From an uncultured Chlorobiaceae bacterium (lineage in GTDB: Bacteria; Bacteroidota; Chlorobiia; Chlorobiales; Chlorobiaceae): a stretch of 41,250 bases of DNA. Where the stretch lies: the NCBI GenBank assembly GCA_903822595.1, contig CAIJPS010000094.1:1-41250 (forward strand), written 5' to 3'. Position 1 is the stretch's first letter; every line of letters begins with the position of its first letter. The translations under genes were made by a program, and so were the position numbers. The notes under the pieces were generated by a model that saw only the letters and a list, made by a program, of their open reading frames with translations, had not been told where the DNA came from and searched no databases. This document shows positions 20,689 to 34,429 of the stretch, in pieces.

Positions 20689-21351
20689 TCACTCTTTGAC
20701 ACACCTCACGGCAAAGCCCTGTGTTTTGCTGCTCGATATGCGGTACACGGCCGAATAGCTGTTGTACATCTCGCGGTACCATGCCGACCAGGCGTTGTTT
20801 TCTGTTGATGTCCAGAAGCCGCTGTTGTTGCCGAGAAGCGCAAAATTGCCGTTGCTGCTGCGGTAGCCTGAAGGAATAGCTGTAAATCCGCTACTGTTGT
20901 CTGCACCAACAAGCGGCTCTTTCCAGAGTATCTTGGATTTCAGTTTTGAGCCTGCTGCTTTCTCCCCGCCCAGCGTCGTCACCAGTTCCTGCCATTCGCC
21001 GTCTGAAGCGACATGCCACCCTTCGGGCGCAAGTCCCCTTGGATCGTTGACGGCATACCAGTTGTACAGTTTTCCGTAGGTCATGTTGTTCTCGCTCTTG
21101 TTTTCGTAATAACACCAGGCGCCTGTTGTGAGTTTGCTCCACGCTTCAGGGTTATCTACCTGGGGTATCGGGTCGCCGTTGCGGTAATTGCTGGTGTTGA
21201 GGTTTTCAGCCATCCATGCATGAGCAGCGATTGAGACGGTTTCAAAAGAATTGGTACCGGCAGAGAGCTCTTTTGCTGTTATAAAAAGGGCAAATACAGC
21301 GAAAACAATGAAAATTGCCGCTGTCCAAGGTGTTTTGTGGCTACTTTTCAT
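20689..21351 (-). CDS. Secreted FISUMP-domain protein
   Basis: A 220-residue exported protein with a 'Fibrobacter succinogenes major paralogous' domain. The N-terminus (MKSSHKTPWTAAIFIVFAVFALFITAKELSAG) is a signal peptide or single anchor. The domain follows: WMAENLNTSNYRNGD, WCYYENKSENNMTYGKLYNW, GLAPEGWHVASDGEWQEL, GFTAIPSGYRSSNG, FWTSTE and the terminal FAVRCVKE. These domains are related to the C-type-lectin-like or DUF1566 folds and sit on cell surfaces, but their ligands are generally unknown. The gene stands alone, convergent with corA. Two DUF1566 genes of similar architecture lie at 24171 and 33861. Confidence 0.85.
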   Translation of the reverse strand: MKSSHKTPWTAAIFIVFAVFALFITAKELSAGTNSFETVSIAAHAWMAENLNTSNYRNGDPIPQVDNPEAWSKLTTGAWCYYENKSENNMTYGKLYNWYAVNDPRGLAPEGWHVASDGEWQELVTTLGGEKAAGSKLKSKILWKEPLVGADNSSGFTAIPSGYRSSNGNFALLGNNSGFWTSTENNAWSAWYREMYNSYSAVYRISSSKTQGFAVRCVKE

Positions 21352-24170: not shown

Positions 24171-25130
24171 ATGGATGGCAAGCAGGACAATCAGGATAGG
24201 CAGCAGAAGCCGTTAACCCGGCGGGAAGCTATAAAAATGCTGGCTCTCGGAGCAGCGGGTGCAATAACCTCCCTTACCTTGGGACGAGATGCATTTGCCT
24301 GGGACAACCGCTATTACTCTAACCCTTATTTATCCGTGTACTCTCCCCCTTACTATGGATCGTACGCCTATTCTTCCTCTTCCTACTCTTCCAGTTCCGG
24401 CTATTTGTCGTCCTACCGCACATCTGGCTATTCTTATTCCTCCTCTGGTGGCTACTCATCCAGTTATTACAATTACAGCTCCTACAGCTCTTATAGATCT
24501 TATAGCTCTTACTCCTCCTTATACAGTTCGTACTCTTCCTTGTATAGCTCATACAGCCCCTATTCGTCACATAACTCAAATGCTCCGGGGCAGAGCAGGA
24601 TTGGGGAGGCTTATGGAGGAGGAATTATCTTTTATGTCGACGGTTCTGGCCAGCACGGCCTTATTGTGGCAAAGGAAGATATCAACAAGAAGTATAAAGA
24701 CAGGTGGAATGGAGAAAAATATGACAGCCGGTTTCGATGGTGTACGGGCCGCAGTGAGGGAGATGTATCGAGAGAAGATTATGCTTACGGAGACATAGGA
24801 ACATATACATGGATCGGAGCTGGAGGGATAAATACGCAACAGATTCTGTTGAGATATCCAGTATCAGACTATCCGAACAGTGCAGCGGCAGTGGTCAGTG
24901 CCTACAGGGGGGGAGGCTATAGCGACTGGTTTTTGCCGAGTAGGGACGAACTGTATGAGCTTTGCAAGCAATACAAAAAAAGTGTTTTTGGTGGTTTTGC
25001 TCCCAGCCATTACTGGAGTTCTTCGGAGTATAGTGCAGTTGTCGCATGGAATCAAAATATTGGCAATGGGTCACAGTTTGTCGACAACAAGGTCAACGAG
25101 TGGCGGGTGCGGCCTGTCCGGGCGTTTTGA
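24171..25130 (+). CDS. Tat-exported Ser/Tyr-rich protein with DUF1566 domain
   Basis: A 319-residue protein with three parts. A twin-arginine signal (LTRREAIKMLALGAAGA, cleavage likely after DAFA near residue 43) is followed by about 95 residues made almost only of Ser and Tyr with some Gly (SSYSSLYSSYSSLYSSY and similar). A DUF1566 domain comes last (IGEAYGGGIIFYVDGSGQHG, GYSDWFLPSRDELYEL, HYWSSSEYS, ending RVRPVRAF). The frame opens at 24159, but GAGGAG at 24161-24166 places the start at ATG 24171. Tat export implies folding or modification in the cytoplasm before transport. A tatA gene follows at 25274, and a radical SAM/glycosyltransferase cassette comes after that. Function unknown; probably cell-surface. 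Confidence 0.85.
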   Translation: MDGKQDNQDRQQKPLTRREAIKMLALGAAGAITSLTLGRDAFAWDNRYYSNPYLSVYSPPYYGSYAYSSSSYSSSSGYLSSYRTSGYSYSSSGGYSSSYYNYSSYSSYRSYSSYSSLYSSYSSLYSSYSPYSSHNSNAPGQSRIGEAYGGGIIFYVDGSGQHGLIVAKEDINKKYKDRWNGEKYDSRFRWCTGRSEGDVSREDYAYGDIGTYTWIGAGGINTQQILLRYPVSDYPNSAAAVVSAYRGGGYSDWFLPSRDELYELCKQYKKSVFGGFAPSHYWSSSEYSAVVAWNQNIGNGSQFVDNKVNEWRVRPVRAF

Positions 25131-25159
25131 ACAATTTATCAATTTAACCATTTGGGGGT

Positions 25160-25179
25160 ACAGGGGGCTTGCCCCCTGT
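25160..25179. repeat. Perfect 9-bp GC-rich hairpin followed by an A-tract
   Basis: ACAGGGGGC-TT-GCCCCCTGT lies between the DUF1566 gene and tatA, followed by eight A (not T). On the plus strand it is a stable hairpin that could slow transcription or protect the upstream mRNA 3' end, but it lacks the U-tract of a terminator. It may be a dispersed repeat family member. Confidence 0.55.
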
Positions 25180-25273
25180 CAAAAAAAAGTAAAGCAGGTT
25201 GCTGCGCGGGAAAATGGATTGCTTCCATAATGGATCTGGCAGATATTAATCACGTAAACCCAGAGGAGAGAGG

Positions 25274-25462
25274 ATGTTTGGAATAGGTGGTCAGGAGCTT
25301 CTTCTTGTTTTTCTTATCATTTTGCTGTTGTTCGGTGCCCAGAAGCTTCCAGAGCTTGCCAAATCGCTGGGCAAAGGGATGAAAGAGCTGAAGAGAGCGC
25401 AGAGCGAGATTGAGGAAGAGGTTAACAAGGTGGTTGATGCGCCCTTGAAAAAGGAGAAATGA
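25274..25462 (+). CDS. tatA: Twin-arginine translocase subunit TatA/TatE
   Basis: A 62-residue inner-membrane protein that multimerises to form the passage for folded Tat substrates. One N-terminal transmembrane helix (LLLVFLIILLLFG) precedes the conserved FGAQKLPELAKSLGKGMKELKRA amphipathic-helix region, and a charged tail follows. The ribosome site is strong (GAGGAGAGAGG just before ATG). No tatB or tatC is adjacent. It lies between a Tat substrate gene and the radical SAM cassette; 82 bp separate it from the first radical SAM gene, so it may be dedicated to this locus or simply be the general TatA. Confidence 0.92.
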   Translation: MFGIGGQELLLVFLIILLLFGAQKLPELAKSLGKGMKELKRAQSEIEEEVNKVVDAPLKKEK

Positions 25463-25544
25463 TTGGTTGTTCATCTTGACAATGGTGTTGTTGTAACCGT
25501 GCTTTTCGCCATGCAAAAGGCAGCGCATAAAAAAGTGAAGCGAT

Positions 25545-26558
25545 ATGGCTAATCTGCTGTTAACCCGTCGGTGCGTCCGAAGTTGTCCTTACTGTTTTGC
25601 GAGTGAGCAGATGAACATGAATGATCTCTCCGCAGAGGTGAGTTGGGAAGATTTGATCTATGTCACTGACTTTTTTGAATCATCGGGCGAGAAGCGACTG
25701 TCGTTGCTGGGCGGCGAACCTTTGCTGCATAAGCACTTTCCCGACATGGTGCTCTATCTGCTCAAACGGGGGTTTCATGTCACCGTTTTTACCAGCGGGG
25801 CGATACCGCAGGAGCTGACCGATACCATAAAGAGTTTTTTACCGGTTGATCTGCTCATGCCTCTCGATTTTGTCTGCAATCTGAATGAGCCCTCATGCTC
25901 TCCGAAGAAGGAGAACGAGCGTGTTGAATATTTTTTGAAGCAATTTGGCCCAAAGTGCGGGCCGGGGTTCAATATCTACCGTCCTGATTTCGATCTTCTC
26001 TTTCTTTTTGATTTGATCAATCGTTTTGGCCTCAAGCGTCATCTGCGCCTCGGTCTTGCTGCTCCCATTCCCGGTGCGGTCAATCAATGCCTCTCTGTAA
26101 GTTCAATTCGTCCAGCGATGCAGCGGCTGCTTTCGTTTGCCGCTGATTTTGCCCGTAACCGGTTGCAGATGGAGCTTGATTGTGGCTTTACGCTCTGCTC
26201 TTTTACCGATGAAGAGCTGGGCACGCTTTTCAGGATTGCAACTCCGCTGCATTTCGGGTGTGGACCGGCGGTGGATATTGGCCCAGACATGATGGTCTGG
26301 TCCTGTTTTCCGCTTTCACGGCTTGCGCCCCGTTCGCTCTATGAGTTTGCCTCTCTTGGCGAGTTGCTTGACCATTTTCGTGCGCGGTTGGGCGATCTTC
26401 GAGCTGAATCGGGGGGCATTCATTATGAGTGCGATGAGTGCCAGCATCGCGAAATCGGGCGCTGTCAGGGTGGCTGTGCGGCCCATATTCTTGCAGCCAT
26501 GAAAGATGAACCTTCTATCCGTCTTCCGGAGATCAATACATGCCTGCAGAACCTGTAG
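25545..26558 (+). CDS. Radical SAM/SPASM-type protein (first of cassette)
   Basis: A 337-residue protein with the radical SAM cluster motif at the extreme N-terminus (LTRRCVRSCPYCFAS, Cx3Cx2C), a GGEPLLHKHF motif binding the SAM amino group, and a C-terminal Cys set (FGCGPAVDI, WSCFPLS, YECDECQHREIGRCQGGC). The latter resembles SPASM auxiliary iron-sulfur ligation. Such enzymes modify peptides or proteins by radical chemistry. Its 3' end overlaps the next gene by 19 bp, implying coupled translation. No known maturase subfamily is recognisable to me. Confidence 0.85.
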   Translation: MANLLLTRRCVRSCPYCFASEQMNMNDLSAEVSWEDLIYVTDFFESSGEKRLSLLGGEPLLHKHFPDMVLYLLKRGFHVTVFTSGAIPQELTDTIKSFLPVDLLMPLDFVCNLNEPSCSPKKENERVEYFLKQFGPKCGPGFNIYRPDFDLLFLFDLINRFGLKRHLRLGLAAPIPGAVNQCLSVSSIRPAMQRLLSFAADFARNRLQMELDCGFTLCSFTDEELGTLFRIATPLHFGCGPAVDIGPDMMVWSCFPLSRLAPRSLYEFASLGELLDHFRARLGDLRAESGGIHYECDECQHREIGRCQGGCAAHILAAMKDEPSIRLPEINTCLQNL

Positions 26559-27004
26559 ATTTTTCCTGCCGTCCGGCAGAGTGGATCATGCGAACCGCTA
26601 CGCAGCATGAAGAGATACCCTTGCTTCCGGTGTCCGGTGAATTCCTGACGAAGGCGAGGATTCTCTCTTCATTAGGCGTTCGTGTATCGCTCGATCTCTC
26701 CACCGGCCTGATTGACTGGGAGGCGTTAAGTGATCTCCTCTCTTACGCGGTGTATGGCCGTTGCCCTCATGCGCCCATCGAGCTGTTTGAAACCATGATT
26801 GCACAGCCGCCTCCTGAACAGGAAACGTTGAACGAGCAATTTGTCACTCGTGACTCCTGCGTTAATTGCCAGGGTTGGCGGGCCTGTTTTGGTGAGTGGA
26901 AGGCGCAGTGCACACCGGCCTGCCAGGATTTTTTTACTGAAATTATTGATGCCCGTCTCTACCGGCTCAAGCAGTTCGGAGAAGGGAAGCCATGCCCACA
27001 CTGA
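26540..27004 (+). CDS. Cys-rich partner protein of radical SAM cassette
   Basis: A 154-residue protein of no family I recognise. Its C-terminal part has SCVNCQGWRACFGEW followed by QCTPACQDFF (Cx2Cx5Cx7Cx3C). This looks like a detached SPASM or metal-binding knuckle, followed by a short helix (EIIDARLYRLKQF). The N-terminal half may be an alpha/beta region (ARILSSLGVRVSLDLSTGLIDWEAL) reminiscent of a substrate-recognition fold, but this is a guess. It overlaps both neighbouring radical SAM genes (19 bp and 13 bp), so it is part of the same translational unit. It might be an electron-transfer or substrate-handling subunit. Confidence 0.7.
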   Translation: MPAEPVDFSCRPAEWIMRTATQHEEIPLLPVSGEFLTKARILSSLGVRVSLDLSTGLIDWEALSDLLSYAVYGRCPHAPIELFETMIAQPPPEQETLNEQFVTRDSCVNCQGWRACFGEWKAQCTPACQDFFTEIIDARLYRLKQFGEGKPCPH

Positions 27005-28104
27005 TTGTAAAACCAACCGAGCGCTGTACCTCACATTGCGCCTATTGTGATGTGGTTGCCAAAAAGAAGCGTTTCGATGATATGACGGTGGAGACCTTGC
27101 GGTTGATTTTTCAGCGCGTGGACGAGTATCTGAAAGCGCACCCTGAAAGCAGAGTCAACTGGATATGGCATGGCGGTGAACCGCTCCTGATGGGCAAGCA
27201 TTTCTATACGCAAAGCCGTGAACTGCTTCATACGCTCTGTAAAACGACCGGTGACCGGATTCAGTTTGCCATGCAAAGCAATCTGATGCTCATGGATGAT
27301 GCATGGGCAAGTGTTCTCAGGGAGTTGCGGATAACCTCGCTCGGATCCAGCTATGACCCGCTTGATGGCGCCCGGGGAGCGGGGGAGCTTTGTGATACGG
27401 TGGCCTATAACAGGGCATTCCTGCGGGGAAAAATGGTTGCGGAACGCAGTGGTATCGGTGTGGGAATCATCTATGTGCTGACCAGGCCAGCCCTTGATCG
27501 ATCTCGTGAAATTTTTCATCATCTTGTCAATGTTACGGGTGGCAGTTTCAACATTCATCCCGTTCTTCTGTACTGTGACCGGCGACCTGATCTTGCGGTC
27601 ACTCCGGATGAATATGCCGACTTTCTGGGAGAGATTTTTCCGGAATGGTGGCAGCATCGTGAACGATATGGCAGGGTTGAACCATTTTCGTCACTTGTTT
27701 GCAATATCATGGAACAGAGTCATTCGCTTGGTTGTGTTTTCAGCGGGAACTGTATGCGTGAACATATTTCGATAGCCCCTGACGGCCATCTTTCGCACTG
27801 TGGCCGGTCGGAAGATTGGGATTTGCTTGATTATGGTATGCTTCATGACAAAACCTTTGAGACGGTGCTGCATGATGCACAGCGGATGGCGCTGGAAGAT
27901 CGTAATGCGCATCTTCTGAAAAATGAGTGTGCTGACTGTCGCTTTTGGGGTCTGTGCCATGGGGGTTGCCCTCTGGATGGATGGGCTGTTCAGGGCAATC
28001 TTCTTTCGAGCAGTCCATGGGGATGTGCTCAAAAAAAATTCATTGTCGAATATTTTGAACCGATTACCGGAGTGCGTTATGAAGGAATCTCCCATCTGGA
28101 TTAA
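26992..28104 (+). CDS. Radical SAM/SPASM-type protein (second of cassette)
   Basis: A 370-residue enzyme. The N-terminal TERCTSHCAYCDVV (Cx3Cx2C) binds the radical cluster, WHGGEPLLMG is the SAM-contact motif, and a C-terminal SPASM/twitch region carries LGCVFSGNCMREHISIAPDG, SHCGRSEDW, CADCRFWGLCHGGCPLDGW and a last Cys in PWGCAQ. This Cys pattern is that of anaerobic sulfatase-maturase-like (anSME/PqqE-like) enzymes, which act on peptides or proteins. The start overlaps the Cys-rich gene by 13 bp, and the end overlaps the glycosyltransferase gene by 26 bp. Confidence 0.88.
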   Translation: MPTLIVKPTERCTSHCAYCDVVAKKKRFDDMTVETLRLIFQRVDEYLKAHPESRVNWIWHGGEPLLMGKHFYTQSRELLHTLCKTTGDRIQFAMQSNLMLMDDAWASVLRELRITSLGSSYDPLDGARGAGELCDTVAYNRAFLRGKMVAERSGIGVGIIYVLTRPALDRSREIFHHLVNVTGGSFNIHPVLLYCDRRPDLAVTPDEYADFLGEIFPEWWQHRERYGRVEPFSSLVCNIMEQSHSLGCVFSGNCMREHISIAPDGHLSHCGRSEDWDLLDYGMLHDKTFETVLHDAQRMALEDRNAHLLKNECADCRFWGLCHGGCPLDGWAVQGNLLSSSPWGCAQKKFIVEYFEPITGVRYEGISHLD

Positions 28105-28912
28105 TCCGGTCGGCGGACTCGGTGACACGTTGATGCTTTCCGGAGTGCTGAAGTTCGTTCTTGACCGTGAGCCAGGCACTCGTTTTCAGCTTGTTCGCCG
28201 AATGAAATATCTTCCGTTTCTTGCCAATCATCCGGCGATCAGCGGGATTGGCCATCCGCCAAAAGATGCAACACTGATTGGCACTGACTATTGGAGCACT
28301 GAGCGCTATCGGCAGGGGGGCAGGGCATTTCACTCTCTTGCCGAAAAGTTTGATCTGCCGTTGCCTGTTGCTGAACAACTGTGGTTACCTGATATGGAGA
28401 AGTTAACGTACAGATGGCCCTCGTTGCCTCCTTTGCGTCCCCGTGTTGTTTTTTCAGCCAGCACCGACTCGCCACGCAAAAAGTGGGAGATGAGAGAGTG
28501 GGCCGATCTGGTGGCGAGGTTTCAACAAAATGGCTGGAGCGTTATACAAACCGGACGGATTCATGAACCCTATATTCCGGGCGCATTTTCCCTGCTGGGT
28601 CTTACCTCTCCACTCGAATTGATCGCCTTGCTGAAGGAGACGGATCTGCTGATATCGACAGACAGTTTTGCCATGCATGCGGCAAAGTTGGTTGGAACGC
28701 CCGCCATTATCCTGTGGGGTCCGACGCTTTCATCGGTTTATGGGTATAAAGAGCATCTTCATGTTTCAGCAGCAAAACGGTGTGAGCCAGCCTGTATCGG
28801 TCCTGATCAATCTATCCAGTATGGAACGCCCTGCACTCAGGAAACTCCATGTATGACATCGATTAAGGCCGATCAGATATGGGATGTGGTAACGGCAGCA
28901 AATTGCCTGTAA
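28079..28912 (+). CDS. Glycosyltransferase family 9 (heptosyltransferase-like)
   Basis: A 277-residue GT-B fold enzyme of family 9. It starts MKESPIWINPVGGLGDTLML (the GGLGD acceptor-side loop typical of heptosyltransferases), and the donor-binding half contains GLTSPLELIALLKETDLLISTDSFAMHAAKLVGTPAIILWGP. The frame is open from 27923, but homology begins at ATG 28079. It overlaps the preceding radical SAM gene by 26 bp, so it belongs to that cassette rather than to a lipopolysaccharide cluster; no other LPS genes are near. It may glycosylate the product of the radical SAM enzymes. It ends 5 bp before the convergent photolyase gene. Confidence 0.85.
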   Translation: MKESPIWINPVGGLGDTLMLSGVLKFVLDREPGTRFQLVRRMKYLPFLANHPAISGIGHPPKDATLIGTDYWSTERYRQGGRAFHSLAEKFDLPLPVAEQLWLPDMEKLTYRWPSLPPLRPRVVFSASTDSPRKKWEMREWADLVARFQQNGWSVIQTGRIHEPYIPGAFSLLGLTSPLELIALLKETDLLISTDSFAMHAAKLVGTPAIILWGPTLSSVYGYKEHLHVSAAKRCEPACIGPDQSIQYGTPCTQETPCMTSIKADQIWDVVTAANCL

Positions 28913-33860: not shown

Positions 33861-34429
33861 ATGAGCTACACGAATTCCATCCGGCAATTGGCTCATGTAT
33901 TTCACAAGAAAGAGTATCAGAATACCGATGAACATGAAGGTGTTTATGGGAAGCTGTTTGCCGATGAAAACCAATCAGAAGCAAAGAACCGAAACAATCA
34001 GTCGCAATTGCTGCATGAGCAGGGGCGGGTTACCGTAGGTGACGAGTATGGCGGTGGCATTGTTTTTTATGTTGATGGTACCGGAATACATGGACTTGTT
34101 GTCGCCAAAGCAGATATGCCGACTCTTTCATCTGACAAGGAGGAGGGGGGCTTTACCTGGTGTGATGCCAAAGCCGCATGCACTACGCTTGAGAGCAATG
34201 GCTATCGTGACTGGTTTTTACCAAATAAGGAGCAGTTGAATCAGCTCTATCTCATCAGCTCTATCTCAACAAGCTTGCTGTTGGAGGTTTTGCCGATAAC
34301 CATTACTACTGGAGTTCGACGGAGTACAATGAGAATATTGCATGGTTACAGAACTTTACCAATGGAACCCACTATGTGATCAGCAAGACGTATGGCCTCG
34401 ATCGTGTACGGGCTGTTCGGGCTTTTTAA
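33861..34429 (+). pseudogene. DUF1566 protein gene, frameshifted
   Basis: The first frame carries GDEYGGGIVFYVDGTGIHGL, FTWCDAKAAC, GYRDWFLPNKEQLNQLYL, then loses homology. The expected ending (KLAVGGFADNHYYWSSTEYN, then RVRAVRAF and stop at 34429) continues in another frame. The break coincides with a 14-bp duplication at 34242-34269; removing one copy restores an unbroken domain. It closely resembles the DUF1566 half of the Tat-exported protein at 24171 but lacks its Tat signal and Ser/Tyr tract. The N-terminus is uncertain: ATG 33861 has no clear ribosome site. Confidence 0.8.
34242..34269 (+). repeat. 14-bp tandem duplication causing a frameshift
   Basis: CAGCTCTATCTCAT is followed immediately by CAGCTCTATCTCAA. 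Thirteen bases are identical at a 14-bp period. In the single-copy form the frame would read NQLYLNKLAVGGF, as in the family. Confidence 0.85.

Follow-up and report, generated by a model that had tools for sequence, protein, structure and literature searches.

Peptide-crosslinking radical S-adenosylmethionine (SAM) systems are so far mostly known for small secreted products. The dynobactin and darobactin maturases, DynA and DarE, work on short antibiotic precursors, and the His-Xaa-Ser system (HxsA, HxsB, HxsC and HxsD) combines two radical SAM maturases with a triplet-repeat protein. In the triceptide systems (XncB, OscB, MscB, YxdB, YhhB), a SPASM-type radical SAM enzyme is encoded beside an aromatic-X-polar precursor; according to the parts of the source available, these three-residue cyclophane-forming enzymes (3-CyFEs) bond the ring of Trp, Phe, Tyr or His (position i) to the C-beta at i+2, for example of Asp, Asn, Ser or Arg, and known pairs include Tyr-Asp, Tyr-Arg, Phe-Ser and Phe-Asn (PMC11002830). 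DUF1566, in turn, is described as a known target domain of retroelements in the available part of another paper (PMC4159848). Here, we analysed a 41,250-nt stretch of DNA from an uncultured Chlorobiaceae bacterium (assembly GCA_903822595.1, contig CAIJPS010000094.1; hereafter the window), in which all positions below are counted. At 24171-28912, it encodes a precursor with a twin-arginine translocation (Tat) signal and a Ser/Tyr repeat tract, a TatA protein, and a cassette comprising a radical SAM enzyme (rSAM1), a Cys-rich partner, a second radical SAM enzyme (rSAM2) and a family 9 glycosyltransferase (GT9). The cassette is conserved across genomes and is not a local accident, and it is linked to Tat Tyr-repeat proteins.

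An rSAM1 profile run against species genomes picked out 37 loci, among them contigs of three relatives of the window's genome (G229, G230 and G232). By record title, the loci of other genomes belong to Nitrospirae, Ignavibacteria, Bacteroidota, Gemmatimonadetes, Syntrophaceae and other Deltaproteobacteria, and further to Elusimicrobia, Nitrospinales, Spirochaetes, Zymogenus and one Gammaproteobacterium; the whole set spans about ten phylum-level names, and most of it is metagenome-assembled. The partner was detected in 32 of the 37 loci, rSAM2 in 31, GT9 in 18, tatA in 5, tatC in 3 (all three reaching the Pfam cut-off) and a Tyr-repeat precursor in 33. Contig ends explain several of the shortfalls (L094, whose rSAM2 lies on another contig, L096, L110 and L111), and rSAM1 is truncated in L108. 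The precursor is a Tyr-rich repeat protein of exported type, its twin-arginine motif being clear in 30 loci; it lies upstream of the cassette in some loci and downstream in others, and three loci (L091, L105 and L106) have two precursors each. We then applied a fixed criterion, a twin-arginine-like motif and, after it, 6 or more Tyr in 40 residues. Of the open reading frames (ORFs) that satisfied it, 32 lay no more than 2.5 kb from the cassette, in 259 kb of searched sequence, whereas the rest of these loci (213 kb) had none (binomial p ~5e-9). A further 58 loci of Chlorobiaceae, some of which overlap and which total 229 kb, had none either. The precursor type, defined by Ser, Asn/Asp or another residue two positions after Tyr (Y+2), tracked the rSAM2 tree, with 5 changes versus a shuffled mean of 12.5 and a minimum of 9 in 300 shuffles (quick tree). 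An earlier note on this DNA, made from the sequence alone, had linked the parts by proximity and had regarded a cassette common without a nearby Tat Ser/Tyr-rich gene as evidence against the link; the opposite was seen, and the association recurs in unrelated genomes, so the link holds. The cassette could instead act on a different substrate, with the Tyr-repeat protein as a mere frequent neighbour, as might be argued from L102 and L107, which have rSAM1 and no detected Tyr-repeat protein. However, the presence of that protein on either side of the cassette in 33 loci and the agreement of its type with the enzyme tree speak against this, as does neighbour clustering, in which no family other than the cassette genes, GT9 and precursors occurred in more than 4 loci; we consider a different substrate highly improbable. 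It is rather likely that the window's locus belongs to a maturation-and-export system that is widespread but sparsely distributed.

In the window, the precursor gene (24171-25130, 319 residues) is followed by tatA (25274-25462) and, after a gap of 82 bp, by rSAM1 (25545-26558), the partner (26540-27004), rSAM2 (26992-28104) and GT9 (28079-28912), all on the plus strand. The last four genes overlap by 19, 13 and 26 bases; the GT9 start at 28079 is our choice, the listed frame opening at 27923. Coordinates and Pfam matches thus bear out the gene parts, the single strand, the four-gene overlap and the 82-bp gap that the earlier note had reported. Within the family, true relatives of both rSAM1 and rSAM2 were present in 4 of 86 genomes, the window's own, G229, G230 and G232, and rSAM1 was confined to the same four in a phylum sample of 394 genomes. 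The broader matches of rSAM1 in 54 of the 86 genomes were mostly to generic radical SAM proteins, and those of the Lcl_C domain found in the window's precursor, in 68 of the 86, mostly to the bare domain. Among 30 Lcl_C loci fetched, 29 were resolved, and a Tat signal with a Tyr tract was present in only three, those of the window, G229 and G230, which are the cassette-bearing ones. In G229 and G230, the order is rSAM1, partner, rSAM2, GT9 and then the Tat Ser/Tyr-Lcl_C gene, with no tatA in between; since this differs from the order in the window, the association of precursor and cassette has survived rearrangement. G232 encodes a small Tat protein with GYGVSGDY repeats, then rSAM1 and a partner of full length (282 residues); its rSAM2 lies on a second contig, the end of which overlaps the first contig by 141 bases, and GT9 was not found on this 5.2-kb contig. 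The neighbourhood comparison across Chlorobiaceae that had been proposed with the original hypothesis therefore shows cassette and Tat Ser/Tyr-Lcl_C gene together in three genomes and a cassette with a small Tat repeat protein in the fourth. The partner was also tried as the sole query: it gave 59 pattern matches and no confirmed relatives in species genomes, no relatives in plasmids, and only the window's own copy in a phylum sample of 198 genomes. This short protein diverges too fast, and rSAM1 was therefore used as the query instead. Near the G229 cassette (L024, 5481-6584, minus strand), a DDE transposase gene (PF01609, 35.6 bits) suggests mobility.

The tract of the window's precursor (24300-24584), with its Y-x-S repeats, is the predicted region of modification. 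Of its 96 residues, 41 are Ser and 26 are Tyr. The length agrees with the roughly 95 residues first noticed; however, at 67 of 96 residues (70%) the tract is Ser/Tyr-dominated, not nearly pure Ser/Tyr. Across 34 precursors including the window's, we compared the residues around Tyr with 1000 shuffles in which Tyr was fixed. Where Y+2 was not itself Tyr, it was polar in 648 of 697 cases, compared with a shuffle mean of 479 and a maximum of 509, although repeats within a precursor inflate these counts. Gly was depleted at this position (13 observed, 62 expected), and a Tyr spacing of 3 was enriched (524 versus 314 by shuffling; 33 precursors). In 29 of the 34 precursors, +2 was polar more often than +1; the reverse held in 3, and the two positions were equal in 2, one of them the window's. 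The Elusimicrobia precursors of L088 and L101 show little repetition, and all 6 counted Tyr residues in each have N, Q, K, D or R at +2; L094 is an exception to the polar rule. The precursor tracts therefore follow a Y-x-polar rule, which amounts to an aromatic-X-X motif with a C-beta-bearing third residue, as in 3-CyFE substrates, Gly still accounting for 13 of the 697 cases. By analogy, the Y-x-[S/N/D] tracts match the motif crosslinked by known radical SAM cyclophane enzymes, and because Gly lacks a C-beta, its avoidance at Y+2 fits a crosslink from i to the C-beta at i+2. The rule is also a sharp and cheap prediction for mass spectrometry.

The enzymes were compared with NCBIfam models, with cut-offs seen for the window's protein only. 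The best match of rSAM2, which falls in a dynobactin/cyclophane/anaerobic sulfatase maturase-like group, was DynA (136.6 bits over nearly the full length), far below the cut-off of 450; next came TIGR04083, the anaerobic sulfatase maturase model TIGR03942 (126.1 bits, cut-off 349.45), DarE, DarW and then GrrM, all far under their cut-offs. Its SPASM region matched TIGR04085 with 40.5 bits (cut-off 27), and all 33 rSAM2 sequences matched this model at E 0.001. Known 3-CyFE models were matched without reaching any cut-off (GrrM/OscB, 75.6 of 310 bits; YhhB, 66.5 of 445; FxsB, 57.7 of 370; XyeB, 50 of 450), and across the rSAM2 sequences the DynA, DarE, GrrM and YhhB models were matched at low score. 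Thus, rSAM2 resembles the dynobactin and darobactin maturases in having DynA as its best model and differs from them in scoring so far below the DynA cut-off (137 of 450). The rSAM1 protein has a radical SAM domain (PF04055, 51.4 bits) and conserved SPASM-like C-terminal cysteines; it matches radical SAM models mostly over its first 100 residues, and its structural model (mean predicted local distance difference test score, pLDDT, 89.7) has SuiB, BlsE, SkfB, anSME and PqqE as the nearest solved folds. In pairing two radical SAM maturases with a triplet-repeat protein, the locus recalls the His-Xaa-Ser system; however, Tyr takes the place of His in the repeats and the HxsB matches were weak (53.1 bits for rSAM2 and 18.1 bits for rSAM1, cut-off 370). 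HxsC was weakly matched by 9 of 34 rSAM1 sequences (best E 1.9e-6), no partner sequence matched the HxsD model, and the L078 precursor weakly matched HxsA4 (22.1 bits, cut-off 55).

The window's partner has 154 residues and is predicted to be a short form of a protein of about 280 residues. The partner family gave no Pfam match; in NCBIfam, the SPASM model was matched by 2 of 32 members, and one member matched an unrelated family at E 0.006. A predicted structure of the L079 partner (pLDDT 94.6) resembled anSMEcpe (Z 14.4, root-mean-square deviation 3.5, 259 aligned residues) and ChlB, and also 5why (Foldseek E 1.4e-4), which we take to be CteB. Conserved cysteines occur only in the C-terminal part (C-x2-C-x5-C-..-C), and there is no CxxxCxxC motif. 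Because the modelled fold is that of a radical SAM/SPASM protein and the conserved cysteines are only C-terminal, the partner is predicted to be a pseudo-radical-SAM/SPASM scaffold.

These matches also bear on the reaction. The cassette might modify the Tyr-repeat protein by other radical chemistry, such as ether or thioether bonds, epimerisation, Tyr oxidation or conversion of Ser to formylglycine: rSAM2 is nearly as close to the sulfatase maturase as to DynA, sequence comparison at E 0.01 gives anSMEcpe and ChlB as its only relatives of solved structure, and two radical SAM enzymes would allow a second reaction. However, Ser is nearly absent from some Asn-type tracts (3% in L097 and L109), so formylglycine is ruled out as the common product; Cys is scarce in most tracts; and the avoidance of Gly at Y+2 points to a bond at the +2 C-beta. 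We regard other chemistry as unlikely, if far from negligible, and a crosslink at Y+2 as the reading that better suits the tracts.

GT9 (PF01075, 50.9 bits, cut-off 22) is an optional member of the cassette. In L097 and L099, rSAM2 and GT9 are fused in a single frame (688 and 702 residues), and in L097 both domains reach the Pfam cut-offs; these fusions tie GT9 to the pathway. Among the sequences in the rSAM2 tree, GT9 accompanied 12 of 12 with Ser-type precursors (L086, where the contig ends, was omitted) versus 7 of 18 others (Fisher p 0.0006), a link that is inseparable from kinship, as only 5 independent pairs are available, too few for significance. One could propose from this that GT9 and general lipopolysaccharide enzymes account for the locus, its product being a Ser-rich surface protein that carries a sugar, and the radical SAM enzymes serving to make or modify that sugar. 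SPASM enzymes of the rSAM2 type, however, act on peptides, and 19 of the 37 loci have radical SAM genes with no GT9 detected (several contigs end early); together with the kinship of the Ser-type loci, this makes a sugar pathway very improbable. Glycosylation of the precursor may still accompany crosslinking in some genomes. The picture in the earlier note, of a Ser/Tyr-rich protein with a four-gene cassette that includes GT9, can be refined: the precursors have in common Tyr with a polar residue at +2, and not Ser, and GT9 can be absent.

The precursors resemble Tat substrates in having a twin arginine, a hydrophobic stretch and a cleavage site or lipobox. The window's signal (24171-24299) contains RREAIKM, ends in AFA and scores 13.6 bits with TIGR01409, under the cut-off of 16.7; wherever this model was matched among the precursors, the score was just under the cut-off. 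RR[DEN]A is present in 31 of 34 precursors, the window's included. A lipobox pattern was found by script in 9 of 33 precursors, and the L078 precursor also has a Cys at that place; a lipid-anchored product would remain surface-bound, an argument against its being a diffusible antibiotic. The window's tatA (PF02416, 65.7 bits, cut-off 21) is the third TatA/B/E gene of its genome. The three relatives with the cassette have two each, but five were counted in G010, where the cassette was not detected, and one in G075. The original proposal, modification in the cytoplasm before Tat export, fits the comparative evidence well and is in this sense well supported, with the modification itself still predicted.

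Among the precursors, only those of Chlorobiaceae were seen to carry the C-terminal Lcl_C domain (window 24882-25121; PF07603, 44.9 bits, cut-off 34.9), which we take to be the former DUF1566. The precursor copies of G229 and G230 are nearly identical except for a tract deletion and a block at the 3' end. A template repeat of G229 lies on another contig, with a reverse transcriptase gene (RVT_1, 73.5 bits, cut-off 29.6) directly 3' of it. The cassette-linked gene differs from this template at 23 of its 47 A positions versus 1 of the 89 others. A-restricted changes with a reverse transcriptase 3' of the template are the signature of a diversity-generating retroelement, and the Chlorobiaceae Lcl_C domain is a target of such an element, with adenine-specific variation. 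The variable region of the window (24987-25122) differs from the G230 template at 17 of 44 A positions and 15 of 102 others (p 0.002); the A-specific pattern, seen in full for the G229 orthologue, is partial here, and by its sequence the region appears retroelement-derived and not freshly copied from G230's template. In the window's own genome, the search for a template yielded two pattern matches (C20 and C74, 2 mismatches each), neither of them a clear template; the one on C20 has 24% A, compared with 33% in the template of G229. The closest match in this genome to the G229 type of reverse transcriptase covers 151 residues, and other reverse transcriptases are present. In diversity-generating retroelements, a GC-rich stem lies behind the variable region. 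The GC-rich inverted repeat at 25160-25179, 3' of the window's variable region, has counterparts behind other variable regions; the earlier note had counted it as a hairpin that might divide the operon, and the repeat itself stands. A's follow it, not T's, and a terminator scan did not list it; it fits a retroelement better than a terminator. With a C-terminal DUF1566 variable region, A-specific template differences and, in G229, an adjacent reverse transcriptase, these proteins resemble the retroelement variable proteins described in the available part of PMC4159848, and differ from them in that the domain is carried by a putative Tyr/Ser stalk, which is exported by Tat and has a maturase cassette to itself.

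Three further observations concern retroelements. A 70-base match (74%) to a retroelement template at 34276-34345 of the window may be a second variable-region fragment. The window also encodes, at 20689-21351 on the minus strand, a Fib_succ_major protein (PF09603, 164.9 bits); according to the available part of PMC4159848, this domain resembles DUF1566 and is likewise a retroelement target. Elsewhere in the family, L069 (2240-4394; G224, contig C142) holds a retroelement with a variable region, a template and a reverse transcriptase (RVT_1, 67.9 bits) beside Lcl_C genes.

From these comparisons, we infer a crosslink chemistry, a division of enzyme roles, occasional glycosylation and a stalk role as follows. 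The precursor would carry a twin-arginine signal and, after it, a tract whose repeating unit is Tyr-X followed by Ser, Asn, Asp or a different polar residue. While the protein is still in the cytoplasm, rSAM2, and perhaps rSAM1, would dock via the non-catalytic partner and bond the Tyr ring to the beta carbon two residues on; as the reaction is repeated from unit to unit, the tract would become a stiff rod of small cyclophane rings. If present, GT9 would attach a sugar, probably to Ser. Because such a rod could not be threaded unfolded, it would leave by Tat, and 9 or 10 of 33 products look lipid-anchored. In Chlorobiaceae, the rod would serve as a stalk for the hypervariable DUF1566 binding domain, which the retroelement would rewrite. 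We judge tandem cytoplasmic Tyr-X-Ser/Asn/Asp crosslinking, sometimes with glycosylation, followed by Tat export and, in Chlorobiaceae, use as a stalk for a retroelement-diversified domain, to be the best explanation and a reasonably probable one. Several points weigh against it. GT9 was detected in only 18 of the 37 loci, and rSAM2 scores about equally well with DynA (137 bits) and with the anaerobic sulfatase maturase (126 bits). In L102, the set of rSAM1, partner and rSAM2 is complete, but no precursor was found in the stretch, which ends just 3' of rSAM2, and L107 (Bacteroidales) has rSAM1 without partner, rSAM2 or precursor. The window's tract is equally Ser-rich at +1 and +2 (19 of 23 each), which makes the positions inseparable there, and G232, with YGVS and YVAS repeats, breaks the rule (polar at +2 in 3 of 10). 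Clear twin arginines are missing in 3 of 33 precursors (L079, L082 and L103), precursor start codons were picked by a simple script, and the inflation of the Y+2 counts by repeats belongs here too.

Compared with the triceptide systems, the locus has two radical SAM enzymes and a pseudo-radical-SAM partner, an optional GT9, a Tat signal as leader and long repeat tracts, and the window's rSAM2 lies under the cut-off of every such model. In searches of the open-access literature aimed at such a system, with incomplete result lists and few subscription journals, no description was found of a Tat-exported, radical-SAM-modified Tyr-repeat protein in the parts of the sources available. We tentatively suggest, as a possibility that we rate somewhat below even, a new class: exported, tandemly cyclophane-crosslinked Tyr rods, produced in the cytoplasm by a pair of radical SAM enzymes with a pseudo-radical-SAM scaffold, carried out in folded form by Tat (some genomes supplying their own tatA or tatC), and in Chlorobiaceae used as a rigid stalk for a diversified binding domain. 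If true, this would be a structural use of radical SAM crosslinking, in which long repeat tracts are stiffened and then sent through Tat, and the reason for Tat would be that a crosslinked chain cannot unfold for Sec. In Chlorobiaceae, a stalk would be added to a hypervariable surface receptor, and receptor binding and presentation would become testable questions.

Some loci contain further genes of related type. Behind rSAM2, the Syntrophaceae and Gemmatimonadetes loci L087 (11015-12118) and L086 (9084-9821) carry a second rSAM2-like paralogue. In L107 (155-4372), the rSAM1 relative (41%) has an upstream ORF that matches the MvdD pre-ATP-grasp domain below its cut-off and a downstream ORF that resembles, by eye, the gene between rSAM2 and the precursor in L100 (10951-11613). 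Multi-radical-SAM gene clusters with a weak rSAM1 match occur elsewhere in Chlorobiaceae (L008-L015; G224:C227, G177:C43, G219:C46, G044:C114, G185:C2, G209:C19 and others) and are possibly, we presume, the SynChlorMet cassette; the ScmF model was weakly matched by 27 of the 34 rSAM1 sequences.

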